Source: Bacteroidota bacterium
GTDB taxonomy: Bacteria; Bacteroidota; Bacteroidia; Bacteroidales; Prolixibacteraceae
Reading direction: 5' to 3'
NCBI GenBank assembly: GCA_021849365.1
Contig: JAJZSZ010000003.1
Coordinates: 1-41,392, forward strand
DNA length: 41,392 bases
Of the stretch, positions 4,095-41,301 are shown piece by piece. Under the pieces are notes generated by a model. It was not told the DNA's origin. It made no database searches and saw nothing but the letters and a program-made list of their open reading frames with translations. The translations under genes and the position numbers were made by a program. Within the stretch, counting starts at the first letter, position 1, and each line of letters opens with the position of its first letter.

Positions 4095-4592
4095 CTATTC
4101 AGTTGGCTTACCTGCAGCCACATTTTTGCTATGCTCAATCGACTGTAAAGCCAGATAGTTGTCGCCAAATTTCACTAGGTTTTCCATTTCTTTGTCGTAC
4201 TGACCAAAGTGGCGTTCTTCATCGTCAACCAAAGCTTCAAAAATCTTTCTTGAGGCCGAGTCGGCGTTCTGAGAGCATACGTTAGCCCATTCATTGTAAT
4301 CCTTCACGCTTCCGGTTTCCATTCCGGCAGCCGTTTCGAGCATTTGTTTCACATCGTGAATTTTCTGCACGTCTTGTGCTGCTTTCATTTCCACTTCGCC
4401 TTTCAGAAATAGGATACGGTCGGCCAGTCTTTCAACGTGCATCATTTCTTCAATAGCTGTGCGTTTGAAGAGATTAGACAGCAAGTCATATCCTTGATCA
4501 TCGCAATGAAAATGGAAGTACATGTATTGGTGTACTGCACTTAATTCGTCGGCAATAGCCTTGTTTAATAGTTCGATACTTTTTTCTCTCAT
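4095..4592 (-). CDS. Bacterioferritin / ferritin-like diiron protein
   Basis: 165 aa. LNKAIADELSAVHQYMYFHFHC, AIEEMMHVERLADRILFLKG, DDEERHFGQYDKEMENL: ferritin-like E...ExxH and EExH motifs. Confidence 0.88.
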   Translation of the reverse strand: MREKSIELLNKAIADELSAVHQYMYFHFHCDDQGYDLLSNLFKRTAIEEMMHVERLADRILFLKGEVEMKAAQDVQKIHDVKQMLETAAGMETGSVKDYNEWANVCSQNADSASRKIFEALVDDEERHFGQYDKEMENLVKFGDNYLALQSIEHSKNVAAGKPTE

Positions 4593-4843
4593 CTCTTTTA
4601 ATTTATCGATTTATGGTTCTTTATTTAAGTTTCCCGATTATTTGAGGTTTGGTATTTTCAATTCCAAAATTCGGAATTTTCCTGAAAATATTATGAAGTA
4701 AACTCACTTATTTTATTGATATAATAATATTCGGTGCAATCTCATTCGGGTAATGTTTTTGGGGATTGGATGATAAATAATCCCAATAAATAGTGATTGA
4801 TTTGTTTTGCAATACCGGATAGTTTTGTCTTTTTTAAGAGCTA

Positions 4844-6211
4844 ATGAAAAAACCAATACTTGCAATCGGCTGTGCGGTTCTTATCCTGTCGTGTACAGAA
4901 AATGACGATAATACTCCACGCAAACTGGAAGGTGAAAAGGCTGGTGGTGAAACCACCGTTTTCGTTAAAACAAGCCAGGCTTTCGGTTTGCCTGCAACGA
5001 ATCTTTCAGCCGAAAGCCTGGAAAAGCATCTGGCTGGAGATAAAGCTTTCGGAGCGCTTTTCGTAGCCAGCCCTGCCCAAAAGAACGGTGGTTTAGGTTC
5101 AATTTTCAACAACAATTCGTGCAACGGCTGCCATCCTTCCGACGGGCGGGCTTCGGTTCCAGAAAACCTCAATGGAATGAGCGGCTTATTTCTGAAAATA
5201 AGCATTCCCGGGACAGATGAGCATGGAGGGCCTGCACCGGTCCCGGGATTTGGCACCCAGCTTCAGCACCAGGCTATTTATGGCTATCAGCCTGAAGCCA
5301 AAATGAGTGTCAGCTATCAGGAAAAGAATTATACTTTCAGCGATGGTTCCACAATCACTTTGCAAAGGCCGGTTTATGCCATTGTGTCGCCATACATTCC
5401 TTTGCCTGGGAATGTGTTGGTTTCGCCGCGTATCGGGATGCCGGTGTTTGGCCTGGGGCTTCTCGAATCGATTCCTGAAAACGCGATACTGGCTCATGCC
5501 GATCTTGATGATAAGGACAAAGATGGGATTTCAGGAAAAGCGAATCGGGTTTGGGATTTCGTTTCAGGAACTGTAAAACTTGGGCGTTTTGGCTGGAAGG
5601 CAGGCACACCCAGCGTTTTGGTACAGTCGGCAGGTGCTTACAACGAAGATATGGGGCTGACCAATTACCTGAAACCCGTTGAAAGTTCTTTCAGTCAATC
5701 AAACAACGATCCAAGCTCAGTTTTACTGGAAGTGAGTCGTGAGGAACTGGAGAATGTAACTTTTTATTCCCTGACATTGGGGGTTCCGGCTGGCCGCGAT
5801 TTTGACGACCAAGAGGTAATTCTGGGTCATAAAATTTTTGAACAGATCAACTGTTCGACGTGCCATGTAGCATCATTTACCACCGGAACTTACGACGGAA
5901 TACCGGAGATCAGTAACCAGAAAATTTATCCATATACCGACATGCTTTTGCATGATATGGGTGACGATTTAGCCGACAACCGCACCGAGTTTCAGGCCAA
6001 CGGAAATGAATGGAAAACCCGCCCGCTTTGGGGAATCGGACTAACCGCCTTAACCAGCGGTCACACTAGTTTTTTGCACGACGGGCGCGCCCGCAACCTG
6101 ACAGAAGCCATTTTGTGGCACGGCGGAGAAGCTGAAAAATCGAGGGAAGAATTTCGGAAATTATCGACCAAGGATCGTGAAGCCTTGTTGAGATTTTTGG
6201 AATCACTTTAG
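4844..6211 (+). CDS. Di-heme oxidoreductase (DHOR, DUF1111-type 'thiol oxidoreductase'), lipoprotein
   Basis: 455 aa. Lipobox-like signal (ILSC), CNGCH and CSTCH heme motifs, C-terminal WGIGLTALTSGHTSFLHDGRARNLTEAILWHGGEAEKSREEFRKLS. Confidence 0.88.
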   Translation: MKKPILAIGCAVLILSCTENDDNTPRKLEGEKAGGETTVFVKTSQAFGLPATNLSAESLEKHLAGDKAFGALFVASPAQKNGGLGSIFNNNSCNGCHPSDGRASVPENLNGMSGLFLKISIPGTDEHGGPAPVPGFGTQLQHQAIYGYQPEAKMSVSYQEKNYTFSDGSTITLQRPVYAIVSPYIPLPGNVLVSPRIGMPVFGLGLLESIPENAILAHADLDDKDKDGISGKANRVWDFVSGTVKLGRFGWKAGTPSVLVQSAGAYNEDMGLTNYLKPVESSFSQSNNDPSSVLLEVSREELENVTFYSLTLGVPAGRDFDDQEVILGHKIFEQINCSTCHVASFTTGTYDGIPEISNQKIYPYTDMLLHDMGDDLADNRTEFQANGNEWKTRPLWGIGLTALTSGHTSFLHDGRARNLTEAILWHGGEAEKSREEFRKLSTKDREALLRFLESL

Positions 6212-7764: not shown

Positions 7765-8370
7765 CTATATCGTTCGGTTAAAATCATCGGTATCGATTAA
7801 TTTATTAATTACGGCATAGATTGTCAAGCCTGAAACTGATTTGATTCCAAGCTTATTGGTAATGTTTTTCCGGTGCGAAATAACGGTGTGAATACTTATG
7901 AAAAGTTCTTCAGCAATTTCCTTGTTGCTTTTGCCAAGAGCCACCAATCGAATAACATCCAGTTCTCTCTGTGAAATAGCTACATCTTCATCCTGAACCT
8001 GAACGTCAGATTCAACTATTTTCTCGAGTTTATTAAAAATTTTCTCTTCATCGTCGTTGATATAGATGATTTCGTCGAACATCGATAAAAGGTGTTCGTC
8101 AAAATAAGCATATACCAAAGCAATCAACTTAAATCCAAAATTTATGGCTTCCTGACGGAGCAATTTAACCCGTTCGCCCTTGCTGTCGAAATAAGCTGAT
8201 GGATTAACCAACAAAATATCCACTTTTCCTGAACGCACCTTATCGTTGATTTCACGGGTATTGCTGGAAAAACATACTTCGTAATTGAATGATTGCGTTT
8301 TCAGAATCGAATGAATTCCCTGCCGGATAATTTCTGAATGGTCAACAACCAAAACTCTAGTTTTGTCCAT
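7765..8370 (-). CDS. LuxR/NarL-type HTH regulator with a degenerate receiver domain
   Basis: The ORF in the track begins at 8403; MDKTRVLVVDHSEI at 8370 is the more likely start. C-terminal ISQRELDVIRLVALGKSNKEIAEELFISIHTVISHRKNITNKLGI is a LuxR HTH. The receiver phospho-Asp region reads VDILLVNPSAYF. Confidence 0.9.
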   Translation of the reverse strand: MDKTRVLVVDHSEIIRQGIHSILKTQSFNYEVCFSSNTREINDKVRSGKVDILLVNPSAYFDSKGERVKLLRQEAINFGFKLIALVYAYFDEHLLSMFDEIIYINDDEEKIFNKLEKIVESDVQVQDEDVAISQRELDVIRLVALGKSNKEIAEELFISIHTVISHRKNITNKLGIKSVSGLTIYAVINKLIDTDDFNRTI

Positions 8371-9130
8371 TTGCTTTCGCTTCTTTTTCGAGGGTTCGAA
8401 CAATGGGAGTGAGTATTCTCTCTTCTAGTCCGTTGTGGTCGTTCAAATCGTATTCAAGGTCAAACAATTCAAATAATATCTGGTTCCGGTAAAACCGATC
8501 TTTGGTCGGGGGAAAATGCTTGATCAATAACTGTTTCAGGTCATCAAGTTTTTCCTCGATGTTCGAATGGTTGTCAATAAAATCGTCAATCCGGTAACGA
8601 AGAAGTTCCATACTCACTTCCTGTCCCTGCACTTTTTTGAAAAGTGAAAGGATGTAGGGAAAAACAGTTTTTTCTTCGAAGTTCATGTGTTCAATCACTT
8701 CATGCATATATTCCTTAAAGAAGGTGCGTAACAGGCGCGAATCCGGATTCTCTGTTTTTTCTATAAACCGGTCAATTAACTCATTAATGTACGGCAGCTT
8801 ATCCACCAAAAAATATTGGTGCCCGTTTTTCAGGTAATCGATTAGTTCTGGGATATACTCTTTTGATAAAAGTTCTGTGACAGAATAGGTATGGTCATTA
8901 AAAACATTAAGCACCAACAGCACAAACGAAGTGTTGAGATGATTCTTCTCGCAAACCTCTGCAATGTTTTTGTCACCAAAGCCAAGAGAAATGCCAAACC
9001 GCTCGATTACCAGCAGCAAACGCTGGTTGATCTGTATAATGTCGGCCATTCGCAAATCGCCGGTAATAAGTAGTTCACCGGTACGTGCCATATTGTCTGT
9101 TTTTTTTGCAAAATAACGAAATTTATCCAT
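8357..9130 (-). CDS. Hemerythrin (HHE) domain protein, probable sensor
   Basis: Metal-ligand-like motifs HEVIEHMNFEEKTVFPYI, NHSNIEEKL and HNGLEERILTPIV. The ORF is open from 9190; in-frame ATGs at 9130 or 9091 are more plausible starts. Its 3' end overlaps the start of the LuxR-type gene. Confidence 0.85.
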   Translation of the reverse strand: MDKFRYFAKKTDNMARTGELLITGDLRMADIIQINQRLLLVIERFGISLGFGDKNIAEVCEKNHLNTSFVLLVLNVFNDHTYSVTELLSKEYIPELIDYLKNGHQYFLVDKLPYINELIDRFIEKTENPDSRLLRTFFKEYMHEVIEHMNFEEKTVFPYILSLFKKVQGQEVSMELLRYRIDDFIDNHSNIEEKLDDLKQLLIKHFPPTKDRFYRNQILFELFDLEYDLNDHNGLEERILTPIVRTLEKEAKANGQN

Positions 9131-9363
9131 CTTGCCTGAATGCCGTTTTGACCTAAAGTCTGGCCTCGATTCTGAATTTTGAACCATCATAATATTCGAT
9201 AAGGTTGAGAAAGTGATTTATTAAATAGCTTGCCGGTATTGGTTTTATCAATTATTGTAATAGGGTATTATTATGGATTGACAACGAGTTAATTAGTTAG
9301 TTTTCAGGGCCTGGCAAACAGCTCCAAACGTATTGGAGTGATACCCGAATTGCCCGAGCCAAA

Positions 9364-9726
9364 CTAATTCAGGTGCCTCGGGGAGAAAGTCCCGAAATCG
9401 ACCTCTATTCTCGTAACGGAAATGAGCTCATTCTTGTTCCGATTTATGAAATTGCGGATTAAACTCTTGATCTCATCCAGCTCGCCCGAAGTAAAAAGTA
9501 GCTTCAATCCGCTATCGGGTATGGGAACCATTATCTTTCTACGATATACCGATACTTTATTTTGATGTTCGTAAAACAATCCGTCAATTTGCTCCAAATG
9601 ACTGAGAAAATGGTTCATCTTCATCTCAGACGAAAAATCATAAGAGAAGTTTCCGAATTCCAGATGAATTTTCTGACATTGGTTACAAGTAAAGATTTGC
9701 CCGTTTGCGCTGCTGTGTAAAATCAT
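9364..9726 (-). CDS. Conserved hypothetical protein with a CxxC motif
   Basis: 120 aa, begins MILHSSANGQIFTCNQCQKIHLEFGNFSYDF. Coding-like composition, no family confidently assigned. Confidence 0.65.
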   Translation of the reverse strand: MILHSSANGQIFTCNQCQKIHLEFGNFSYDFSSEMKMNHFLSHLEQIDGLFYEHQNKVSVYRRKIMVPIPDSGLKLLFTSGELDEIKSLIRNFINRNKNELISVTRIEVDFGTFSPRHLN

Positions 9727-10019
9727 AGTTCGAATTTTTCAATAATTATAGAGGCAAAAATATGCTGAATATGAAAAGGGATCAATCACTTAAAATAATG
9801 AAAAAGTCGATGGCAATCCCAACTAATGGTCATGCATTCCTCTGAAAAATTAATACAGAAACGAGTAGGCTTCACCTTACCACGCCTTGTTTCTATGCCA
9901 TTTATCTGCTTCAATCATAACATTTGGGGATAGCCCGAATTTATATCGCTATTAGTGGGGATTGATGCGAATTCCCCATTTCGGTTGCTTTGCCACAGAA
10001 ATTCAAACAACTGAAATCT

Positions 10020-11300
10020 ATGAAAAATATCGCAACCGGAATTCTGGTTTTACTGGCTGCCGGATGTCTGTCAGCAAATCCGGTTTATGGTCAGGAGCAG
10101 CCCGATTCGAGCCGGGTGGAACAAGGATTTAAGAAATACCGTTTTGGCGGGTATGGCGAAATATTATATCAGCACATGGATTATGGAGCCGACCGCTACA
10201 ATTACTCCAATGGCGCTCAACCCGACAATCGCTCACTAATCGGAATGCCACGTGCCGTCTTTTCGTTCGACTACAAGTTCCGAAACGACCTTATTTTTTC
10301 TACCGAGCTTGAATTTGAGCATGGCGGAACAGGTTCGGCAATGGAACTGGAATATGAAGAAGCCGGGGAATACGAAATGGAAGTGGAAAAAGCGGGCGAA
10401 GTGGTTCTGGAACAATTGCATTTTACAAAAATATTCAGGCCCTGGCTGAAAGTTCGCGCCGGGCACATGATTGTTCCGGTTGGACAAACCAACGCCCGCC
10501 ACGAATCGATTCGCTATTTTGGGACTTCCCGCCCGGAAAGCGAGACCAGCATCATTCCGCTCACCTGGCACGAAACCGGGATTTCTATACTTGGAAATTT
10601 CCGCAAGTGGTCGTATCAATTGATGCTCGTAAACGGATTGGATGCCAATGGCTTTACTTCGGCCTATTGGGTGAGGGAAGGCAAACAGGGCATTTTTGAA
10701 GAAGTAAAAATGACCGATCCGGCAGCCGTTGTACGCATTGAAAATTGGGGTCTGCGCCATTTGCGGCTATCGGCTTCGGCATACCTGGGAAACAGTACCG
10801 CCAACACCAGTAAATCCAGCGATATGAAAAAATACAATGGCCGGGTGGGGATCATTTCCGGTGATTTTGAATACAACAACCGCAAATTGATTGTCAGAGG
10901 AAACATCATCTCGGGCGACTTAAGCGATTCGTACCAGATTTCGGCCATCAATAAAACATTGTCGAAAAACATTCAGTATTCGCGCACCCCGGTGGCCAAA
11001 AATGCACTGGCTTACGGTGCAGAGGCTGGATACAGCTTCAGGCTTGGAAATTCAGGAGAGCGCATTATTCCGTTTGCCCGCTACGAATATTACAACTCGA
11101 TGGAAAAAACAGCAAGCGGAATGCATGCAGACGAACGCTTCAAGCGCGACCTTCTCACTGTTGGGCTCAACTACTACATAATGCCATCGCTGGCAATTAA
11201 AGCCGACTACTCTCACCGTCGCATTGGTTCAGGAAACTACAACAACGAAAATACATTGGGTCTGGCCCTTGTTTACACCGGCTGGATGCTTCAGAAATAA
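10020..11300 (+). CDS. Outer membrane porin-like beta-barrel protein
   Basis: Signal peptide MKNIATGILVLLAAGCLSANPVYGQ; KYRFGGYGEILYQH, FSTELEFEHGG, VRAGHMIVPVGQTN, alternating barrel-like strands, C-terminal aromatic-rich strands. ORF open from 9990. Confidence 0.85.
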   Translation: MKNIATGILVLLAAGCLSANPVYGQEQPDSSRVEQGFKKYRFGGYGEILYQHMDYGADRYNYSNGAQPDNRSLIGMPRAVFSFDYKFRNDLIFSTELEFEHGGTGSAMELEYEEAGEYEMEVEKAGEVVLEQLHFTKIFRPWLKVRAGHMIVPVGQTNARHESIRYFGTSRPESETSIIPLTWHETGISILGNFRKWSYQLMLVNGLDANGFTSAYWVREGKQGIFEEVKMTDPAAVVRIENWGLRHLRLSASAYLGNSTANTSKSSDMKKYNGRVGIISGDFEYNNRKLIVRGNIISGDLSDSYQISAINKTLSKNIQYSRTPVAKNALAYGAEAGYSFRLGNSGERIIPFARYEYYNSMEKTASGMHADERFKRDLLTVGLNYYIMPSLAIKADYSHRRIGSGNYNNENTLGLALVYTGWMLQK

Positions 11301-11323
11301 ATTCAAACTCAAAATTTACTACT

Positions 11324-12436
11324 ATGAAAAAATACCTCGGACTTTTTATTTTGCTAAATGTACTCTTTGTAGCTTGTTCTAAAGATGACGGTTCTGACAA
11401 CGAGGACAATGAAGAATACAATTACACCAGTATTCTGAACGACTACGTTGACAACACGGTGATTGCCACTTATGCTTCGATGAAAGATAATTCGAAAATT
11501 TTGCTGGCCGATGCGAAAAAATTTATAGCAAGCGGTTCACAAACCGACCTCGACGCAACCTGTGCTGCCTGGAAAGCAACCCGCAAACCCTGGGAAAGCA
11601 GCGAAGCCTTTTTATTTGGCCCTGCCGATTACAAAGACATCGATCCGCTGATCGACTCGTGGCCGCTCGACCAAACCCAGCTCGACCAGGTTTTGGCTGG
11701 GAAACAGGAATTGACGGCCGAATTTGTGCGCAATGGTTTGGGTGCCGGATTGCGAGGTTTTCATACCATCGAATACTTGATTTTCCGCGACGGATCGCCG
11801 CGCAACGCTGCCGAAATTACTGCCCGCGAAAAACAATACCTGACAGCGGTTACCGAAGTTTTACGCGACGATTGCATCACCCTTTGGGCATTTTGGGCTG
11901 GCGTAAAATCGGGATCAGAAGAAGCCGAAATACTGGAAAACATCGATGTTTCTGTTGGAACGCCTTATGCCACTGAGTTCAAAAACTCGGGGACAGCTGG
12001 TAGCCGCTATCTCTCGCAAACCAGCGCAGTGGAGGAAATTTTGCAAGGCATGATCGACATTGCCAATGAAGTGGGCAGCCAGAAAATTGCTGGTCCGGTA
12101 AAAAGTCAGAATGTGCTCGACGTGGAATCGTGGTTTAGCTGGAACTCGCTGACCGACTTCACCAATAACGTGCACAGCATCGAAAATGCGTATATCAACG
12201 GATACGATGGCTCAACTCCCGGAGCAAGCCTTTCTGCTTTTGTCAAAGAAATTGATGCAACAATCGATTCGGAAGTAAAAGCAAAGATTGCCGCTGCGAA
12301 AACCGCCATCAATGCCATTCCGGCTCCATTCCGCAACAGTTTAAACAATACCGAGAAAACCAGCGCGGCCATTGCTGCCATGAGCGATCTGGAAACGGTA
12401 TTGACACAAAAAGTACTGCCATTGGTGGTTGACTAA
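11324..12436 (+). CDS. Imelysin family lipoprotein (peptidase M75/EfeO-like)
   Basis: 370 aa. Lipobox VAC; canonical GxHxxE motif in GLRGFHTIEYLIF; imelysin-like helical C-terminus. Confidence 0.92.
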   Translation: MKKYLGLFILLNVLFVACSKDDGSDNEDNEEYNYTSILNDYVDNTVIATYASMKDNSKILLADAKKFIASGSQTDLDATCAAWKATRKPWESSEAFLFGPADYKDIDPLIDSWPLDQTQLDQVLAGKQELTAEFVRNGLGAGLRGFHTIEYLIFRDGSPRNAAEITAREKQYLTAVTEVLRDDCITLWAFWAGVKSGSEEAEILENIDVSVGTPYATEFKNSGTAGSRYLSQTSAVEEILQGMIDIANEVGSQKIAGPVKSQNVLDVESWFSWNSLTDFTNNVHSIENAYINGYDGSTPGASLSAFVKEIDATIDSEVKAKIAAAKTAINAIPAPFRNSLNNTEKTSAAIAAMSDLETVLTQKVLPLVVD

Positions 12437-12469
12437 TCTCCGTTTAAAAATAAAGTTATTCAAAACCGG

Positions 12470-13891
12470 ATGTTTAAGTATCATAAAATAGGTTTATTAG
12501 TATTTGTTATCTTTCTTTTTCTGGTGAGCCTGATTTTTCAGGCTTGCCAAAAGGAAGAGGAAAATGTTATTCTCACTCCCGGAGGACGAGTCGCATTGCC
12601 TTCTGAACTTTCAGCAGGAAACTCCACCATTTTCTCATCAACCAGCAAGGCTTTCGATACGCCAGCCAATTGGGTAACTGGCAGCCTGATGGATTTATTC
12701 CTGAAAGGCGATGCGTTGTACGACAATCCGCGTGTTTCAGGTGAAAATACAACCAGCGGTGGGCTTGGACCTGTTTATGCCGGGTATTCGTGCGCCAGTT
12801 GCCACAACGACGCGGGACGAACCCGCTCAACACTTTTTACCGCTGGAGGATCAGGCCCATATGGCTTTTCATCATTCTTGACATTTATTAGAACACCCAA
12901 CGACCAGAATTTCAGGCAATATGGACGAGTATTGCACGACCAGGCAGTTTATGGTTCAAAGCCTGAAGGAAAACTTCGGGTAACATATACAGAAAAAGAA
13001 TACAGTTTTCCCGATGGTGAAAAGTACAGCCTCATCACGCCACATTACGAAATCTACGATTGGTATGCCGATTCAATCCCATTGGATCAGATTGAATTAA
13101 GTGTTCGCGTGCCCTTACGCCATGTTGGCATGGGATTAATGATGGCGCTCGACCAAAACGAAATCTTACGATTAGCTACCATTCAATATCCCGAATACGG
13201 AATTTCAGGAAAAGTGAACTGGGTACCGGAACGAAACAAAAAATACCTCGGGTTGTCGGGACACAAGGCGCAACACGCTGATCTGACCGTAGAGCTTGGT
13301 TTTAGTTCTGATTTGGGCGTAACTAATGACCGGTTTCCACACGAAGTTGCGGAAGGACAAAGCCAGGTTAATGGAAATTATGGCATTCAGGCTACAACTA
13401 AAGAAATGGCGGCAGTCGATTTTTATATGCACGCGCTGGGCGTTCCGGCACGCCGGGCTGTTACCAATCCGGTGGTACAAAAAGGTGAAGAATTGTTCTA
13501 TCAGGCCAAATGCAACCTTTGCCATACGCCCACTTTACATACCAAAGCCGGAGGCGTTCAGTTGATCGACGGAACCAATGTGCCGTGGCTCGGAAGCCAG
13601 GTTATCCATCCTTATTCCGACTATTTGCTGCACGACATGGGTCCCGAACTGGGCGACGATTACTCGCAGTTTAATGCAACCGGTGACGAATGGCGAACCA
13701 CCCCTCTCTGGGGCGCCGGTTTGCAGGAAATAGTGAACGGTCACAGCAATTTTTTGCACGATGGCCGGGCCCGCAACTTTGTTGAAGCCATTATGTGGCA
13801 CGGCGGCGAGGGCGACGTGTCGCGCCAAAAATTCAGTAAAATGACCAAAGAAGAGCGGGAAACGCTGATCATGTTCCTGCGTTCGCTTTAA
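12470..13891 (+). CDS. Di-heme oxidoreductase (DHOR), lipoprotein
   Basis: 473 aa. CASCHND and CNLCHT heme motifs; WGAGLQEIVNGHSNFLHDGRARNFVEAIMWHGGEGDVSRQKFSKM. Paralogous to the DHOR at 4844-6211. Confidence 0.9.
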   Translation: MFKYHKIGLLVFVIFLFLVSLIFQACQKEEENVILTPGGRVALPSELSAGNSTIFSSTSKAFDTPANWVTGSLMDLFLKGDALYDNPRVSGENTTSGGLGPVYAGYSCASCHNDAGRTRSTLFTAGGSGPYGFSSFLTFIRTPNDQNFRQYGRVLHDQAVYGSKPEGKLRVTYTEKEYSFPDGEKYSLITPHYEIYDWYADSIPLDQIELSVRVPLRHVGMGLMMALDQNEILRLATIQYPEYGISGKVNWVPERNKKYLGLSGHKAQHADLTVELGFSSDLGVTNDRFPHEVAEGQSQVNGNYGIQATTKEMAAVDFYMHALGVPARRAVTNPVVQKGEELFYQAKCNLCHTPTLHTKAGGVQLIDGTNVPWLGSQVIHPYSDYLLHDMGPELGDDYSQFNATGDEWRTTPLWGAGLQEIVNGHSNFLHDGRARNFVEAIMWHGGEGDVSRQKFSKMTKEERETLIMFLRSL

Positions 13892-13926
13892 GCTCAATCA
13901 TACGAAAATAAAATCAACCTTATTCA

Positions 13927-15111
13927 ATGAATACATTTTTAAAAACTGAAACCAAATCACTTGTTTTCGATCAGGGACGATTTGACAATGCCATGGTTGC
14001 CTACTCGCGGTTCGATGGTGAAGATTCAACCGAATTTAATCTTATCGTTACTCCTGATTCAGGATACAGCTTTCCCGAGCAACTGACAGCCGTTGAAAAA
14101 ACGCTGAAGCATTTCTTGAAAGAACAGGAACTGAACGACGAATCGGTCGTTTTCAAGCGCTTTTTTGTGAGCGATTATTCCAACCAAGCCGAAATACATG
14201 ATCGGATCGACAGCTGGCGGTATGTTTGCGCCACATCAGTCGTTCAGCAAGTGCCCTTGTGTGGTGCAAAAGTGGTGCTTTGGGTGGTTTTGCTTGAAGG
14301 ATCGGTCACCCGCAAAAACCTGAACCCAAATAACCTGATCATGAGCCGAAACGGGTATAACCACCTTTTCACCACTCAAATGTTCGATGTGAAGGCCAAG
14401 GGAAGCTCATTTGGGCAAAGCCTGGAAATCTTTCAGGACTACCAGGAAACACTTCAGGAACAAAACCTTTCGATGGCCGAGAATTGCATCCGCACTTGGA
14501 TTTATGTGCGCGACATCGACAACAATTACGCCGGAATGGTAACTGCCCGAAACCAGATTTTTCAATCGGAAAACCTGACCAAAGACACCCATTTTATTGC
14601 CAGTACCGGAATTGAAGGACGACATGTCAACACCGATGTGCTGGTGTTGATGGATGCTTATTCGGTTGGAGGAATTGAACCGGAACAAATTACCTTTCTG
14701 AAAGCTCCAACCCATTTGAATCCGACTCACGAATACGGCGTGGCTTTCGAACGCGGAACGGTTGTTCATTACGGTGACCGAGATCATATTTTTATTTCGG
14801 GAACAGCAAGTATTGATAACAGTGGCCAAATTGTGCATACCGAGAATATCGCAGGACAAACAGAGCGCGCCTTTGATAATGTGCGTGCTTTGCTAGTAGA
14901 AGTCGGGGCTACTTTAAATGATCTTTCCCATCTGATTGTATACGTCCGCGATTTGGCAGATTCACCGCTTATCGAACAATACATCGAACTGAATTATCCG
15001 TTCATTCCGCGGGTCATTGTTCAGGCCCCGGTGTGCCGCCCCGGCTGGCTCATCGAGATTGAAGGAATTGCCATAAAAGCCACCCGTAATCCGAAATTCA
15101 ACAACTATTAA
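13927..15111 (+). CDS. RidA/YjgF-like (possibly tandem RidA/chorismatase-like) protein
   Basis: 394 aa. C-terminal IFISGTASIDNSGQIVHTENIAGQTERAFDNVRALLVEVGATLNDLSHLIVYVRDLAD...IPRVIVQAPVCRPGWLIEIEGIAI is RidA-like. The N-terminal half is a related-looking but divergent domain. Confidence 0.82.
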   Translation: MNTFLKTETKSLVFDQGRFDNAMVAYSRFDGEDSTEFNLIVTPDSGYSFPEQLTAVEKTLKHFLKEQELNDESVVFKRFFVSDYSNQAEIHDRIDSWRYVCATSVVQQVPLCGAKVVLWVVLLEGSVTRKNLNPNNLIMSRNGYNHLFTTQMFDVKAKGSSFGQSLEIFQDYQETLQEQNLSMAENCIRTWIYVRDIDNNYAGMVTARNQIFQSENLTKDTHFIASTGIEGRHVNTDVLVLMDAYSVGGIEPEQITFLKAPTHLNPTHEYGVAFERGTVVHYGDRDHIFISGTASIDNSGQIVHTENIAGQTERAFDNVRALLVEVGATLNDLSHLIVYVRDLADSPLIEQYIELNYPFIPRVIVQAPVCRPGWLIEIEGIAIKATRNPKFNNY

Positions 15112-15122
15112 ATCAACCTATT

Positions 15123-16361
15123 ATGTGTAAAATTTCAGGATTATTGGTTTTGCTGGCTTTTAGTTTATCTGCTTTTGCCCAAAATGCAATCGATAAAAAC
15201 AAACAAACCAACACCGACAAATACATTGAAAATGGTTTGATTTCCTTAGCCGGAAAAGATGGGGTGACCTGGCAAACCCGGGCAGGCGATTTTCTTTTCA
15301 AACCTTATACACTGATTCAGACACGCGGCATTTTTAACTATTACGACGATGAGGGATTGGATCTCGCCGAACAGGATAATGTGCTGAATACCGGATTCGA
15401 AATTCCGTACGCACTGGTAGGTTTCGCCGGAAAAGCATTCAATAAGATAACGTTCAATGTGGCCATCAATGCGGCAGCCTCAGGGGCCGTTTTGCTTAAC
15501 CAGGCCTGGTTCGATGTCAACCTGCGAGACGAACTCAGGTTCAGGATCGGGAAATTTAAAACGCCGTTCAACCAGGCATTTCTGGTTCAAAATGGCCAAA
15601 CGCTTTTTCCGATTTTGCCCGCTTCGCTCACCACACGGGTCAATCTGCCTTACGACATTAATTCGGTAAACCCTAAACTGTCAACCGGATTCGATATTGG
15701 TGTGCAAATGCACGGTTTGCTGAATAAAAAATTGGAATACCAACTAGGTATTTTTAACGGTACGGGCATCGACGTAAATACCGCGACCGGAACGCTCGGT
15801 GACGACAACGGTTTGCCCGCATTGCTTTATATGGGCAGACTGGCGTATATGCCGTGGGGTTTGATGCCTCAACACCAGGGCGATCCGTCGAACTTCGATA
15901 AAAAAGCGCTTTTGCTGGCGGCTTCGGCTGGCTATGGCGTTGAAGCCAACTACGAAAGTAGCAACGATTTTCATGCCGGGCTGGAATATTCGCTTCTTTA
16001 CAAACGCTGGTTTGTTTCAGGAGAAGCCTATTTGCTCAATATGGATTTTGTTGAACGACAAAAGGTATCTCCGGTTTACTCGTTCTGGGGAAGCTATATT
16101 CAGGCAGGCTATTTCCTGAATAAAAAGGTACAACCGGCTATCCGGCTTGATGTCATGGACCGCAACTCAGTTTCGAACAAAGGAATTTTGTACATGCCAG
16201 CCGCCGGATTTAATTACTATGTTTCGGGGCACAACCTGAAAATGCAGGCGATGTACCAATATCTCGGAAAAGCAGGGCAAAGTAGCGTAAGCCTGGCCAA
16301 CGACGACGATAACGGCATGTCGGAACACCAGTTTTGCCTTCAGTTCCAGTTTGCATTTTAA
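15123..16361 (+). CDS. Porin, phosphate-selective porin O/P-like
   Basis: 412 aa. Signal peptide; LFKPYTLIQTRGIFNYY, FDVNLRDELRFRIGKFKTPFNQAFL, C-terminal LQFQFAF. Confidence 0.88.
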   Translation: MCKISGLLVLLAFSLSAFAQNAIDKNKQTNTDKYIENGLISLAGKDGVTWQTRAGDFLFKPYTLIQTRGIFNYYDDEGLDLAEQDNVLNTGFEIPYALVGFAGKAFNKITFNVAINAAASGAVLLNQAWFDVNLRDELRFRIGKFKTPFNQAFLVQNGQTLFPILPASLTTRVNLPYDINSVNPKLSTGFDIGVQMHGLLNKKLEYQLGIFNGTGIDVNTATGTLGDDNGLPALLYMGRLAYMPWGLMPQHQGDPSNFDKKALLLAASAGYGVEANYESSNDFHAGLEYSLLYKRWFVSGEAYLLNMDFVERQKVSPVYSFWGSYIQAGYFLNKKVQPAIRLDVMDRNSVSNKGILYMPAAGFNYYVSGHNLKMQAMYQYLGKAGQSSVSLANDDDNGMSEHQFCLQFQFAF

Positions 16362-16372
16362 ACGGGCGCGCC

Positions 16373-17062
16373 ATGTTTCGAACAAACCAAATTCTACTTT
16401 CTTTATTCATGGCCTTTGCTTTTTACGCGTGTGTTCATGAATACGTTCCTGAAGAAAAGTCAAGCTGGAATATTAGGGCCGAACTTTCGTTTGCCGATGC
16501 GCAATATTGGCCATTGGGCCAGCAAATAAGGCTTGGCGCTTTTGCTTCGGGCGATACCAAAAATCCGGTTGCGAGCATTGGCATTGAAAAGCCAGTTTCA
16601 GGAAAGGCAGTAGTGGCCATTGGGGCCGTACCTGAAGGAACTTACCTGGTGAAAGTGTATGTTACCGAAAACACCGTTTTCAAAGCCGATATCGCCGATC
16701 TTGGCGAGTTCAACGTGAATTCGGATCAGGCTTTAACAAAAAATGACATTAAACTGGTAACATTCAGTCGGATACAGCAGCAAATATTGAATTCGTGCAT
16801 TTTATGCCACGGAGGATCAAGCGGCCAGCTCGCAGCCAACCTCAACCTGATGCCCGGGAAAAGCTACACCCAACTGGTAGGTATTCCGGCGTATAAAAAT
16901 GCTTCTTTTCTGCGCGTGCATGCCGGATCGGGCAACTACAGCTACCTGTATAAAGTGTTGAACAAAGACATCGATTTCGACCATGCGGCAAGCAGTTCGG
17001 CCTCTTCAGCCGATAAACAACTAATTTTTGACTGGATAAATGATGGTGCAAAAAATAATTAA
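16373..17062 (+). CDS. Small c-type cytochrome-like lipoprotein (one CXXCH)
   Basis: Begins MFRTNQILLSLFMAFAFYACVHE; heme motif NSCILCHGG; ends WINDGAKNN. The upstream ATG at 16334 would overlap the porin. Confidence 0.8.
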   Translation: MFRTNQILLSLFMAFAFYACVHEYVPEEKSSWNIRAELSFADAQYWPLGQQIRLGAFASGDTKNPVASIGIEKPVSGKAVVAIGAVPEGTYLVKVYVTENTVFKADIADLGEFNVNSDQALTKNDIKLVTFSRIQQQILNSCILCHGGSSGQLAANLNLMPGKSYTQLVGIPAYKNASFLRVHAGSGNYSYLYKVLNKDIDFDHAASSSASSADKQLIFDWINDGAKNN

Positions 17063-17420
17063 ACGAAACTGGCTTTTGCTGCTTTTTATGGGGTTGACAT
17101 CGCTTCAGGCTTGTTACTACGACGTGGTTATTGAAGCGGGCGAAGCCACCACTCAAACCCGAAGTTTTAGCAGCGATGTGTTGCCCATTCTGAAATCGAC
17201 CTGTGTCTCATGTCACGAGGGAACGACGACCTTGCCCGATTTACGTGATGCAAATGCTTACAAATCTATCGTGCGGGGAAATTACGTCTCCGTTTCTGAT
17301 CCAGAAAACAGTGCTCTTATCCAGAAAATTCGGTCAGGTCATCCTTATTCCAACGCTTTAACCGAAAGCGAGATTCAGCGAATAGTTGGTTGGATAAAAG
17401 AAGGAGCACAGAATAATTAA
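17040..17420 (+). CDS. Small c-type cytochrome-like lipoprotein (one CXXCH)
   Basis: 126 aa. LQAC lipobox; STCVSCHEG heme motif; ends WIKEGAQNN. Start overlaps the previous gene by 23 nt. Confidence 0.85.
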   Translation: MMVQKIIKRNWLLLLFMGLTSLQACYYDVVIEAGEATTQTRSFSSDVLPILKSTCVSCHEGTTTLPDLRDANAYKSIVRGNYVSVSDPENSALIQKIRSGHPYSNALTESEIQRIVGWIKEGAQNN

Positions 17421-17421
17421 A

Positions 17422-18312
17422 TTGATCCAGATGATTATCAGGAATATATATACGTTTTTTCTCATCGTTATAACTGGCTTGCTGACCTCAATCTCGGTGC
17501 AGGCACAGGACGATGCGCCAATTTCATGCATCTGGGGAGCCCGGCTGGCCAATCATCAAACAGCAGAGCTTAGCCACAAAGGCACCACTACGATGTTCAT
17601 TGTCCATTATTTTGATCTGATCACAGCCAACGGAATCGGTGATTGGTTTGGCGTTTACGGCTCATCGAATATCCAGATGGGTTTTGAACGCAGTTTTGGT
17701 AAGAACGTCTCGGCTTTTTACTATACCGAAAAGCTGAACAAAACACATGAATTGGGTGCGAGGTTTCAACTCACCCGCCAAACATTGAGCGATGCTTCGC
17801 CGGTAAGTTCAGCCTTGTCGTTTTCGGTTTCAGCCGATGCGCGCAATAAGAAGTTTTTTGGCGACAATTTCTATTTCATCAATCGCTTTTTCTTTACCAC
17901 GCAACTGGCCGTCTCGCGACAAATTTCGCCACGGGTGCAAGTCATGTCGAACACTACTTTTGTGCATTTCAACATTGTTCCCGACCGTTCGTATTCCGAT
18001 TTTTTGGCTGAAAGTTTTTCGCTGGCCTGGCGCGCCAACCGTAAAACATCGCTCTATGCCTCGTGCGATTTTCCACTGGGAGTGGCTTCTGCCGCCAGCG
18101 AAACACCTCAGAAACCTATGCCTGTTTATGCACTGGGAACCATTTTAGCAACCCCCACACATAATTTTCAGGTTTTTGTGAGCAACGCCAACCAAATCAG
18201 TATGGGGAAAGAATATTTAAACAATCATTCCGGGTTCTCGCTTGATGCGCTGCGCATTGGATTCAGTATTCAAGTGAAAATCGGGAAAAGCAAAAAAACA
18301 CACGCCTCATGA
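17422..18312 (+). CDS. Beta-barrel protein, DUF5777-like
   Basis: 296 aa. Signal peptide; ADLI-type barrel region HYFDLITANGIGDWFGVYGSSNIQMGFERSFGKNVSAFYYTEKLNKTHELGARFQL. Family assigned from memory of the pattern. Confidence 0.7.
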   Translation: MIQMIIRNIYTFFLIVITGLLTSISVQAQDDAPISCIWGARLANHQTAELSHKGTTTMFIVHYFDLITANGIGDWFGVYGSSNIQMGFERSFGKNVSAFYYTEKLNKTHELGARFQLTRQTLSDASPVSSALSFSVSADARNKKFFGDNFYFINRFFFTTQLAVSRQISPRVQVMSNTTFVHFNIVPDRSYSDFLAESFSLAWRANRKTSLYASCDFPLGVASAASETPQKPMPVYALGTILATPTHNFQVFVSNANQISMGKEYLNNHSGFSLDALRIGFSIQVKIGKSKKTHAS

Positions 18313-18917
18313 AAACAAACTGTTATTATAAATTCAGGATAATTGGCATTGCCGTTCGATTGGCAGGCCTGCTTTTGCTGATTCTTTGTCTGGGTTTTAC
18401 CTCACGTGTGAAGCAGCAAGCAAACGACAACGAAAAAGTAATCCCTCTGGAAGTGAAAACCGATTCGACCTCGTTTACACTTTCGCAGGTATTGGACAAC
18501 ACTGATAAAACGCTCTATTTTTACCGCGACATTGATCAGTTTCCGTGCGACGACTCGGTTTGCCAGCGCATGCAGGTTCGTATTTATTGGGACGTCAATG
18601 GAAAGTATACAAAACTAACAACACCAGAAGGTTTTGGCCTGACCAAGTTAAACCACAAGCCATTTACACCGAAAGACTATCAAAAACTTGACGAATTGTT
18701 GGGCAACCCGAAATCGTATCTGCGCTACTATAAGCTCGAAAACCTGACCAACAAAGCCGCCGAGAAGCACTATTATTCGGTTGATGCCATTTCGGGAGCA
18801 ACTGTAACCGAAGTGACATACGAAACGGTACGCGGAGCCGTAAAAACCTGTTTTGTACTGTGGAAAATTGCCAATGGCGATGCCCCAAAATACATACGCC
18901 AATTGGCAAAGAAGTAG
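18309..18917 (+). CDS. Membrane-anchored protein with an FMN-binding/flavinylation-like motif
   Basis: 202 aa. N-terminal TM helix; DAISGATVTEVTYETVRGAVKTC resembles the D-x-x-[ST]-G-A-T ApbE flavinylation motif. Confidence 0.75.
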   Translation: MKTNCYYKFRIIGIAVRLAGLLLLILCLGFTSRVKQQANDNEKVIPLEVKTDSTSFTLSQVLDNTDKTLYFYRDIDQFPCDDSVCQRMQVRIYWDVNGKYTKLTTPEGFGLTKLNHKPFTPKDYQKLDELLGNPKSYLRYYKLENLTNKAAEKHYYSVDAISGATVTEVTYETVRGAVKTCFVLWKIANGDAPKYIRQLAKK

Positions 18918-19013: not shown

Positions 19014-20258
19014 ATGAGCGAGCTGATTAATAATTCAAAATTCAGAAAAGAAAAGCTGAAAGAGCTTATTCTGAAGCTCCATGAAGGACAAGACCCCCAT
19101 CATGTCCGTTACGAGTTGATCACCACCCTGAAGCAGATTCCTTACGGCGAAGTAGTGGAAGTTGAACAGGAACTCATTCAGGAAGGCCTGCCTGAATCCG
19201 AAGTTTTGCGTCTTTGCGATGTCCATGGCGAAGTGCTGGATGGTCATATTGACCAAAGCGGAGCTCAATCTATCCCAGAAGGCCATCCTGTAGATGTATT
19301 TATTCAGGAAAACAAGGAATTACGAAATGTCGTTTCAAAAGCAAAGCAATTGCTGGGTTCGCTTCATTCCGTTGCCGAAGAAACGTTCAAAGAGTATTCG
19401 CTGCAAATTCTTTCGTGCTTCAACCAGTTGATGGACGTTGATAAACATTACAAACGCAAGGAATATTTGGTGTTTCCGTATCTTGAGAAAAATGAAATTA
19501 CCGGCCCGCCCAAAGTAATGTGGGGAAAACACGATGAAATAAGGGAACAGCTTAAGGGATGTATTGAAATTCTTCGGACCGAGGAGCTGAAAAAAACAGA
19601 CCTTGAAGATGCACTCGACCTCTTGTTTTCTCCGGTGTTGAAAGCCATCGAAGACATGACTAAAAAGGAGGAAGACATTTTATTTCCGATGAGTCTGGAT
19701 GTGCTTACAACCGAAGATTGGTGGCAGATTCACAAACAAACCCTGGAATTTGGCTTTACTCTTTACGATCCGAACGTAGATTGGAAACCGGAAGGAATGT
19801 CTTACGAGATGTATGAAAACAAAGGTACACTAAGCGAAAATGGCTCAATTCAACTACCATCAGGCAGCTTTACAGCCAAAGAAATTATGGCTATTCTAAA
19901 TACCATTCCGGTTGATATGACTTTTGTTGATAAAGACGACAAAGTAAAATATTTCACGCAGGGAAAAGAACGCATTTTTGTACGTAACCGCTCTATCATG
20001 AACAGGGATGTTCGTTTGTGTCACCCTCCGGGAAGCGTTCACATCATCGAAAAAATTCTTGAGGACTTTAAATCGGGTCTGGCGTCTCACGCCCCGTTTT
20101 GGATACAGATGCACGGCAAATTCATTCATATCGAATACTTTGCACTCCGGGACGAAAATGGCGAATACCTCGGAACACTGGAAGTTTCTCAGGATATAAC
20201 TCATTCACGCCAGCTCGAAGGCGAACGACGCATCCTATCATACACCAACAAAAATTGA
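19014..20258 (+). CDS. DUF438 / hemerythrin / PAS domain protein
   Basis: 414 aa. DUF438-like N-terminus (KEKLKELILKLHEGQDPHHVRYEL), HHE region (HYKRKEYLVFPYLEK...KHDEIREQL...KKEEDILFPM), PAS-like C-terminus (IPVDMTFVDKDDKVKYFTQGKERIFVRNRSIMNRDVRLCHPPGSVHIIEKIL). Confidence 0.88.
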   Translation: MSELINNSKFRKEKLKELILKLHEGQDPHHVRYELITTLKQIPYGEVVEVEQELIQEGLPESEVLRLCDVHGEVLDGHIDQSGAQSIPEGHPVDVFIQENKELRNVVSKAKQLLGSLHSVAEETFKEYSLQILSCFNQLMDVDKHYKRKEYLVFPYLEKNEITGPPKVMWGKHDEIREQLKGCIEILRTEELKKTDLEDALDLLFSPVLKAIEDMTKKEEDILFPMSLDVLTTEDWWQIHKQTLEFGFTLYDPNVDWKPEGMSYEMYENKGTLSENGSIQLPSGSFTAKEIMAILNTIPVDMTFVDKDDKVKYFTQGKERIFVRNRSIMNRDVRLCHPPGSVHIIEKILEDFKSGLASHAPFWIQMHGKFIHIEYFALRDENGEYLGTLEVSQDITHSRQLEGERRILSYTNKN

Positions 20259-20262
20259 TGAA

Positions 20263-20781
20263 ATGGAGAAACTTATTATTACTCCAAAAACCAAGATATA
20301 CGATCTGCTTGAAGCTTATCCGCAACTGGAAGATGTGCTTATAAGCCTAGCTCCTGAATTTAAAAAACTGAAGAATCCGGTTTTGCGAAGAACAATTGCA
20401 CGGGTTGCCAATATTGCCCAGGCGGCAACTGTCGGAGGCGTGAATATAGATCAAATGGTAAATACGCTACGCGAAAAAGTAGGCCAGGACAGTATCGGAC
20501 AAATTGACGATACCGGCAACAAATATGTTACCGTTTGTCCAGAATGGTTTAAACCGGAATCGATTGTCAACTCGATTGACATCAGGGAAATGCTAAACCG
20601 AGGAGAACAGCCGGTTCACGAAGTGCTGTCGTCCATCCAAAAGCTGGGCGACGACGACATTCTGGAAGTTATTGCTCCTTTCGTCCCGGCGCCATTGCTC
20701 GATAAATCTTTAAGCCTTGATTATAAACACTGGCTCGAAAAAAAGGACGAAGGAGAATATTTTGTGTATTTTGCCAGGTAA
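20263..20781 (+). CDS. DUF1858 (plus DUF2249-like) protein
   Basis: 172 aa. ITPKTKIYDLLEAYPQLEDVLISLAPEFKKLKNPVLRRTIARVANIAQAA is DUF1858-like; the C-terminus LDIREMLNRGEQPVHEVLSSIQKL is DUF2249-like. 5 nt downstream of the DUF438 gene. Confidence 0.82.
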   Translation: MEKLIITPKTKIYDLLEAYPQLEDVLISLAPEFKKLKNPVLRRTIARVANIAQAATVGGVNIDQMVNTLREKVGQDSIGQIDDTGNKYVTVCPEWFKPESIVNSIDIREMLNRGEQPVHEVLSSIQKLGDDDILEVIAPFVPAPLLDKSLSLDYKHWLEKKDEGEYFVYFAR

Positions 20782-21010: not shown

Positions 21011-21255
21011 GAATTGATTTTGATATTCCAAGCCATGATATTTGTACCTGAATCTGTAACGTCGTTTTTAAAAGTTAGATAAAATACAAGTACAGGCGAT
21101 GAATAAGCGATTCTCAACTTGTGAGTAATCATTTCTGCTTGAAAGATTGGAAGACTTATTAACATACCCAACCCTCTTTATGTAAGCTACTTTAGTCGAT
21201 TAATCAATTATTTGTTTATAAGTCAAATAAGCAAACAACCGGTAAAAACTTTAAC

Positions 21256-21445
21256 ATTGTATCCGGTTGTTGGTTTGTCGTACAATTGTTCTTGTACGAT
21301 AATGAAGAGGGAATCCCGCGCAAATCGGGAGCTGTGCCCGCAGCTGTAAGTCCATAAAAGGTTTTTGACATACCCCGCCACTGTTTCGAGTGAAATCGGG
21401 ATGGGAAGGCGTCAAGGAAACCGGACGAGCCAGAAGACCTGCCAT
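21256..21445 (+). ncRNA. Cobalamin (B12) riboswitch
   Basis: Conserved elements in order: gagggaatcccgcgcaaatcgggagctgtgcccgcagctgtaag (B12-box region), accccgccactg, gggatgggaaggcgtcaa, gacgagccagaagacctgcc. Confidence 0.95.
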
Positions 21446-21642
21446 GACCAGTTTTTTAATTTAGACTTTCGGGAATAAAAGTCTGGTTCGTGATCGAATC
21501 CGTTTTCCTTATTTATAAAGCTATCGGTACATTCAGTCGTCGCACCTTTTTATTTTCTGAAAGATTTTTACTTAAGATAAACCTGAATCGTTGTCAGTAA
21601 AACTGCGTTCAGGTCTGAAAAACAGGGAAAAAATTTAAACTT

Positions 21643-38473: not shown

Positions 38474-38497
38474 AAAATCCCCAATTGTTGGGATTTT
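38474..38497. promoter_or_regulatory. Palindromic operator-like element upstream of the siderophore receptor
   Basis: AAAATCCC-CAATTGTT-GGGATTTT: perfect 8-bp inverted repeat about 50 nt upstream of the receptor start. Confidence 0.5.
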
Positions 38498-40884: not shown

Positions 40885-41301
40885 ATGATGAACACAAATT
40901 CCAACAAACGGTTTGAAACCCGAAATATCAAACCAACAGCTATGCGCGAATTGGTTTTGAAGGTTTTAAGCGAGCAGAAGGCTGCCATTAGTTTGGCCGA
41001 TCTGGAACAAAAATTTGATAAAGTTGATAAAGTTACTCTCTACCGAACACTCAAAACCTTTGAAGAAAACAAACTCATTCACAGTATTGATGATGGTACA
41101 GGTTCTGTAAAATATGCCTTGTGTCGGGAAACTTGTCAGTGCAACCCGGAAGATCTTCATATTCATTTTCTTTGCACCAAATGCAAGCAAACGTATTGTT
41201 TAAACGACATTCTTGTCCCTTCTGTAAACCTACCGGCTCATTTTACTCTCGAAAATATTAACATGGTAGTAAAGGGGGTCTGTTCAAATTGTCAACTGTA
41301 A
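40885..41301 (+). CDS. Fur-family transcriptional regulator
   Basis: 138 aa. LADLEQKFDKVDKVTLYRTLKTFEENKLIHSIDDGTGSVKYALC; HIHFLCTKCKQTYCLND; C-terminal GVCSNCQ. Confidence 0.92.
   Translation: MMNTNSNKRFETRNIKPTAMRELVLKVLSEQKAAISLADLEQKFDKVDKVTLYRTLKTFEENKLIHSIDDGTGSVKYALCRETCQCNPEDLHIHFLCTKCKQTYCLNDILVPSVNLPAHFTLENINMVVKGVCSNCQL

Follow-up and report, generated by a model that had tools for sequence, protein, structure and literature searches.

A conserved Bacteroidales envelope gene cluster with imelysin, di-haem oxidoreductase and a chorismatase-fold protein, and its likely place in an iron regulon

We analysed a 41,392-nt stretch of a Bacteroidota bacterium of the Prolixibacteraceae (GenBank assembly GCA_021849365.1, contig JAJZSZ010000003.1; hereafter the window), in which nine plus-strand genes encode two porins, an imelysin, a di-haem oxidoreductase (DHOR), a RidA-like protein, small cytochromes and further envelope proteins. 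On the sequence evidence below, this cluster is likely to be one transcription unit of a Bacteroidales iron-acquisition regulon, in which it would carry out Fe(III)/Fe(II) redox in the envelope and feed the ferrous-iron transporter FeoAB. The iron-acquisition reading is adopted because an operator is common to the cluster, feoAB and other iron-uptake genes, and envelope redox feeding ferrous uptake is favoured because of the core gene content together with FeoAB co-regulation. The original prediction of an envelope redox or metal-handling system is thus supported, and is narrowed to iron by the operator.

Operator of the cluster and of iron-uptake genes

An expectation-maximisation motif search on 64 regions upstream of the first porin gene (por1), with shuffles as control, returned the palindrome ATACCTA-N4-TAGGTAT with a log-likelihood of 347, compared with 42–51 in the shuffles; nearly all por1 promoters share it, and 39 of 65 carry it with at most 3 of 14 positions mismatched, as against 1.5% of shuffles. 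The copy in the window (Table 1) has a leave-one-out score of 14.5, which 0.2% of shuffles reach, and its end lies 22 nt before TTGCTTTG; a 22-nt distance from operator end to TAnnTTTG box is the commonest spacing, found in 16 promoters. The TTG at 9990, earlier predicted to start porin1, sits within this promoter, and the start was corrected to the ATG at 10020. A scan for sigma-70 promoters and terminators was uninformative. The NarL heptamer pattern is TACYYMT with 7-2-7 spacing, and we take the layout of the por1 palindrome to match this NarL-like arrangement, that is, the DNA-binding family (GerE) of the LuxR gene in a linked hemerythrin-LuxR pair (hem-luxR).

Two Parabacteroides genomes have perfect palindromes immediately before feoAB, and in P. 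gordonii flavodoxin-DUF2023 is preceded by a site with one mismatch. Moreover, in a comparison of Bacteroidales genomes that ignores phylogeny, the feoAB operator score exceeded 12 in 22 of the 47 genomes that carry the hemerythrin gene and in 1 of the 23 that lack it (Fisher 2e-4; shuffle rate 0.45%), and at locus L057 FeoAB is encoded within the operon itself, between the RidA-like gene (rid) and hem-luxR. Some operator-like sites are near rubrerythrin or flavodoxin. In genomes scanned with ATACCTA, only sites with 0–1 mismatch or promoter-anchored scores were used, because matches at 2 mismatches are noise.

In the window's own genome, sites of the variant ATCCCYA number 26, compared with 9 in the reversed control. 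Seven sites there have 0–1 mismatch; two look like chance, and the other five sit 51–58 bp before an OprB-porin-FeoAB set, a porin-FMN_bind pair, two TonB-PepSY pairs and the present cluster. Three of the genome's operator sites fall inside the window. The porin-FeoAB operon on contig C277 has a perfect site, and feoA on contig C419 has none. At L301:1686-3467, also in this genome, a por1-like porin and an FMN_bind protein with the SGAT motif are paired behind a perfect operator, which suggests a porin-flavoprotein module of the same regulon.

Gene content and conservation of the operon

The nine genes were confirmed with short or overlapping junctions: the gaps are 23 nt from por1 to the imelysin gene (imel), 33 nt from imel to the DHOR gene (dhor), 35 nt from dhor to rid, 11 nt from rid to the second porin gene (por2) and 14 nt from por2 to the first cytochrome gene (cyt1), after which cyt1 and cyt2 overlap by 23 nt, cyt2 and the DUF5777 gene are 10 nt apart, and the DUF5777 and flavin-protein genes overlap by 4 nt. 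The cluster as first described has all its genes present and tightly packed, with the named families right in Pfam; the start of cyt1 was corrected to 16376, and the Porin_O_P match of porin1 is weak (25.4 bits, cut-off 20.9).

A first search with the RidA-like protein against 198 genomes of the order, followed by retrieval of neighbourhoods, showed that several families have this set of genes. An alignment of DHOR then yielded 80 named loci, and gene counts were made on the 57 with enough flank, where DHOR is present in 57, por1 and imelysin in 56 each, rid and cyt1 in 54 each and por2 in 53, with median gaps of 3–76 nt at the common junctions. The named loci are nearly all labelled Bacteroidales, with Bacteroides, Parabacteroides, Phocaeicola, Dysgonomonas, Alistipes, Prevotella, Saccharicrinis, Labilibaculum and Plebeiobacterium among the genera and Paludibacteraceae and Muribaculaceae among the families. 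Two metagenome-assembled genomes labelled Flavobacteriaceae (L050, L051) carry the Bacteroidales-type operon with DHOR 72–73% identical to that of the window, and these labels may be wrong. Gene order, whose lack of conservation in any relative the original prediction had named as a refutation, is conserved across Bacteroidales, and given this recurrence of the core order the grouping of the genes is far beyond chance. The window cluster is an environmental version of an envelope operon spread over gut and marine Bacteroidales.

The commonest order in gut species is por1-imel-dhor-por2-cyt1-rid-ccsBA, where ccsBA is a ResB-CcsA fusion (Pfam), i.e. the CcsBA cytochrome-c maturase; in other loci the ccsBA position is occupied by hem-luxR. 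The window's order, with rid directly 3′ of dhor, is also found in L049–L052, L054 and L072, and in Parabacteroides gordonii (L071:13367-19185) rid-hem-luxR is duplicated in tandem after the core operon. The operon is widespread but patchy within the order: operon-type DHOR occurs in 7 of 198 genomes of the order-level sampling, mostly one per genus, and a phylum-level sample of 147 Bacteroidota genomes has none. Full-length DHOR relatives in this phylum-level sample are closer to the window's second DHOR (4844-6211), and these relatives, too, lie beside an imelysin.

The window imelysin is a close homologue of the proteins of PDB 4ECG and 3N8U (Bacteroidales IrpA/PIBO imelysins); its GxHxxE motif is GFHTIE at residues 145–150, and the acidic metal-site residues E91, E94, D107 and D111 are kept. 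No second imelysin, of the GxxxxE type, was found, this being the single M75 protein in a draft genome that is 91% complete. The DHOR is 56–67% identical to its operon homologues and had no sequence match among solved structures. Each small lipoprotein has one CXXCH motif; cyt1 is modelled (pLDDT, the predicted local distance difference test, 94) as an N-terminal β-sandwich followed by a C-terminal CXXCH, with C19, C141, C144 and H145 conserved in the alignment, and a structure search with it gave weak carbohydrate-binding-module-like β-sandwich matches alone and was uninformative.

The tail of cyt2, DUF5777 and flavin protein is found in L049 and L052 and partly in L050, with cyt2 directly after cyt1 in L049 and L052. 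The last protein scores 17.3 bits with FMN_bind, below the cut-off of 22, and its DAISGAT motif is retained as SGAT in L049 and L050 and appears as SSAT in L052; an ApbE is encoded elsewhere in the genome (C302, 2e-82), outside the cluster, and the protein is probably flavinylated. These three genes were rejected as part of the conserved core, few environmental relatives carrying them. The electron chain first proposed, from flavin through cytochrome to DHOR, therefore does not stand as the core, since its flavin protein and cyt2 are confined to few relatives.

The chorismatase-fold protein

The product of rid had been described as RidA-like, with no obvious role. Its PF01042 match is confined to the C-terminal third (Pfam), and the AlphaFold model (pLDDT 92) matches chorismatases over the entire chain in Foldseek (4bps, 5a3k, 5ag3; E 1e-17 to 1e-19, template-modelling score 0.67–0.72 by target), with E about 1e-19 to FkbO/Hyg5. 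In its predicted structure the protein adopts the two-domain chorismatase fold over its full length, and it looks like a chorismatase. In Hyg5, the catalytic residue is Glu334 and the CH-II residues are Gly173, Gly240 and Cys327 (numbering derived from PMC7170507). These align, in the order Glu334, Gly173, Gly240 and Cys327, to E377, G228, G292 and C370 of the window protein, and among 35 homologues E377, G292 and C370 are invariant and G228 is kept in at least 90%. The substrate-binding Arg of RidA (R105 in E. coli) corresponds to an Arg at position 362 here which is unconserved in the family. DAHP (3-deoxy-D-arabino-heptulosonate 7-phosphate) synthase, the entry step of the pathway to chorismate, is encoded within the operon or beside it in three relatives (after cyt1 in L054, after DUF5777 in L052 and just after ccsBA in L109).

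The protein is like the chorismatases FkbO, Hyg5 and XanB2 in its full-length fold and catalytic and signature residues, but it is only 18–19% identical to them and belongs to a probable iron operon, not to a polyketide or pigment cluster. Other Bacteroidales genomes (L029, L032, L033 and L034) also encode homologues of the fold, 44–47% identical to the window's, at positions outside the cluster.

Proposed function, regulator and alternatives

In the mechanism we propose, the two porins would let in iron or small complexes of it, iron would be bound in the envelope by the imelysin lipoprotein, and DHOR and the mono-haem lipoprotein, which in gut species would be matured by the co-encoded CcsBA, would pass electrons to or from the imelysin-bound iron, so that it most likely stays ferrous for FeoAB. 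The chorismatase may convert chorismate to a hydroxybenzoate-like aromatic with a role as ligand or reductant. The window's lineage adds the second cytochrome, the DUF5777 barrel and the probably flavinylated protein. The nearby hemerythrin and LuxR proteins would be the likely regulator, with the di-iron hemerythrin sensing iron or O2 and its LuxR-type partner binding the NarL-like 7-2-7 palindrome.

In 2011 Xu et al. connected operons of imelysin with DUF1111 (DHOR), those of Bacteroides and Parabacteroides imelysins included, to iron uptake, so that the system is not wholly undescribed (PMC3143127); for the full operon, as for its operator and regulator, literature searches found no paper. 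The 2011 paper dealt with the Bacteroidales IrpA/PIBO imelysin and noted that its operon was like others, and no paper was found in which the chorismatase, the porins, CcsBA, the operator or the regulator is described. In the Pseudomonas aeruginosa PA4370-PA4373 and Vibrio VC1264-type operons, as here, an M75 imelysin stands beside DHOR/DUF1111. Those operons have iron-linked regulation (PMC3143127); for the present one, iron regulation is suggested by the operator shared with feoAB, and the regulator may not be Fur. The window is without a second GxxxxE imelysin and adds two porins, a mono-haem lipoprotein, the chorismatase-fold protein and the TACCTA-N4-TAGGTA operator. The ferrous-iron transporter EfeUOB/M likewise has an M75 protein with HxxE and an acidic metal site and a haem-protein partner, and work on EfeM supports metal binding by M75 (PMC9174327); however, the cluster is without an EfeU (FTR1) permease, has DHOR in place of the DyP-type EfeB, and reaches 27.5 bits with the curated EfeO model, for which the cut-off is 270. 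The operon thus extends the known imelysin-DHOR theme, with a regulator that is potentially new.

The two genes of hem-luxR adjoin one another in the window and, by script, in 28 of 30 sampled loci, and the pair adjoins feoAB in L206, L208, L210 and L214. The His/Glu iron ligands of the hemerythrin are conserved in the alignment. In the LuxR receiver, both in the window and in most relatives, Asn stands in place of the Asp that is normally phosphorylated, which makes it plausible that the LuxR partner is controlled by hemerythrin instead of a kinase. The LuxR gene may resemble CdhR of Porphyromonas gingivalis. CdhR, a LuxR-family regulator of hmuYR, is a haem-uptake regulator in a member of Bacteroidales (PMC9666725), and under iron or haem starvation FeoA/FeoB, flavodoxin and a LuxR gene of P. 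gingivalis rise together (PMC10913741).

A Fur-family protein could instead bind the operator, with hem-luxR a bystander to what would still be an iron operon, since iron regulation is usually the task of Fur, the window contains a Fur-family gene (40885-41301, plus strand; Pfam) and at many operon loci no hem-luxR lies within 10 kb. We consider this rather doubtful: the palindrome layout fits the linked GerE domain, sites before feoAB go together with presence of the hemerythrin gene, and hem-luxR adjoins both target loci, the operon and feoAB. Moreover, Fur of P. gingivalis has been described as non-canonical (PMC10913741). Hence hemerythrin-LuxR, not Fur, probably regulates the operon. The fuller proposal, that this pair is a non-Fur di-iron iron regulator acting on FeoAB, TonB-PepSY and the imelysin-DHOR-chorismatase operon via the palindrome, and that the operon turns chorismate into a small molecule that reduces or binds iron, is offered tentatively.

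For the operon itself, the DHOR family is named putative peroxidase in Pfam, hemerythrin genes are close by and certain operator-like sites are near rubrerythrin or flavodoxin, so that DHOR could be a di-haem peroxidase in periplasmic redox or peroxide defence, with imelysin as structural partner and the iron link mere co-regulation under oxidative or iron stress; this is quite improbable, as operator sites are mainly before iron importers (feoAB, TonB-PepSY), feoAB is inside the operon in L057 and the imelysin metal-site residues are retained. Porins, cytochromes and a flavin protein also resemble electron conduits, and the imelysin-like Algp7 binds Cu2+ in the crystal (PMC9174327), but handling of another metal (copper, manganese) or respiration of extracellular electron acceptors is the least probable account, the regulatory and positional ties being to FeoAB and TonB-PepSY genes. 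Finally, with its C-terminal PF01042 domain and many RidA matches by sequence, the RidA-like protein might be an imine deaminase acting against reactive enamines with no tie to chorismate, which we judge unlikely and rejected as the principal assignment, because chorismatases best match the whole chain, the RidA Arg is not kept whereas the chorismatase Glu and signature residues are, and DAHP synthase is linked in three relatives.

Several observations weigh against iron acquisition with hemerythrin-LuxR control and a chorismatase. The hemerythrin-positive set in the phylogeny-blind feoAB comparison includes the closest feoAB, about half of the feoAB promoters are without a strong site, and ATACCTA-type sites at 2 mismatches are no commoner than in the reversed control, which was higher. 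Moreover, the RidA-like protein did not reach the curated chorismatase model TIGR04444 (51 vs 325 bits), and in a thermofluor assay the imelysin PIBO of B. ovatus showed no specific binding of either ferric ion or haem (PMC3143127).

The window is rich in iron genes; beside the Fur-family gene it holds a ferritin-like protein gene (4095-4592, minus strand; Pfam). The cluster promoter is separated from the hemerythrin gene by a DUF6686 gene (9364-9726, minus; Pfam). Past the cluster by 96 bp, on the same strand, genes for a hemerythrin-DUF438-PAS protein and then a DUF1858/DUF2249 protein (19014-20781, plus) may be a separate unit, and a cobalamin riboswitch (21254-21460, plus; Rfam RF00174, 97.9 bits) is upstream of an apparent anaerobic ribonucleotide reductase gene at 21643.

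Table 1. Cluster genes, operator sites and linked regulatory genes in the window
Feature	Position	Strand	Basis
Operator-like site, 46 bp upstream of second DHOR gene (4844-6211, +)	4780..4797		Genome scan, 2 mismatches
LuxR/NarL-type (GerE) regulator, degenerate receiver	7765..8370	-	Pfam, alignment
Hemerythrin-domain partner of LuxR regulator	8357..9190	-	Pfam, alignment
Operator palindrome ATCGCTA-TTAG-TGGGGAT upstream of porin1	9945..9962		Leave-one-out score and genome scan
-7-like element TTGCTTTGC, Bacteroidales TAnnTTTG type	9985..9993	+	Sequence, spacing
Porin1, Porin_O_P-like outer-membrane barrel	10020..11300	+	Pfam; kept in 56/57 loci
Imelysin (M75) lipoprotein	11324..12436	+	Pfam PF09375 1.6e-61; 4ECG, 3N8U relatives
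DHOR/DUF1111 di-haem oxidoreductase lipoprotein, two CXXCH	12470..13891	+	Pfam PF06537 1.8e-69
Predicted chorismatase-fold protein (RidA-like)	13927..15111	+	AlphaFold, Foldseek, residues
Porin2, Porin_O_P	15123..16361	+	Pfam 2.3e-28; kept in 53/57 loci
cyt1, mono-haem c-type lipoprotein	16376..17062	+	Conserved residues; model pLDDT 94
cyt2, second small mono-haem lipoprotein, accessory	17040..17420	+	Weak cytochrome matches
DUF5777 outer-membrane barrel, accessory	17431..18312	+	Pfam 8e-32
FMN_bind-like exported protein with DAISGAT, accessory	18309..18917	+	FMN_bind below cut-off
Operator-like site, 51 bp upstream of TonB receptor start (ATG 38425), PepSY gene next	38477..38494		Scan, 1 mismatch; Pfam

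In Bacteroidales, dominant gut commensals included, inorganic-iron acquisition and the iron-sensing protein are poorly settled. One operator here ties a widespread envelope operon to FeoAB, and a candidate regulator is named. For the orphan RidA-like gene there is now an enzyme activity that can be tested, and what imelysin and DHOR do, a question since the structures of 2011, would become testable in genetically tractable Bacteroides and Parabacteroides.

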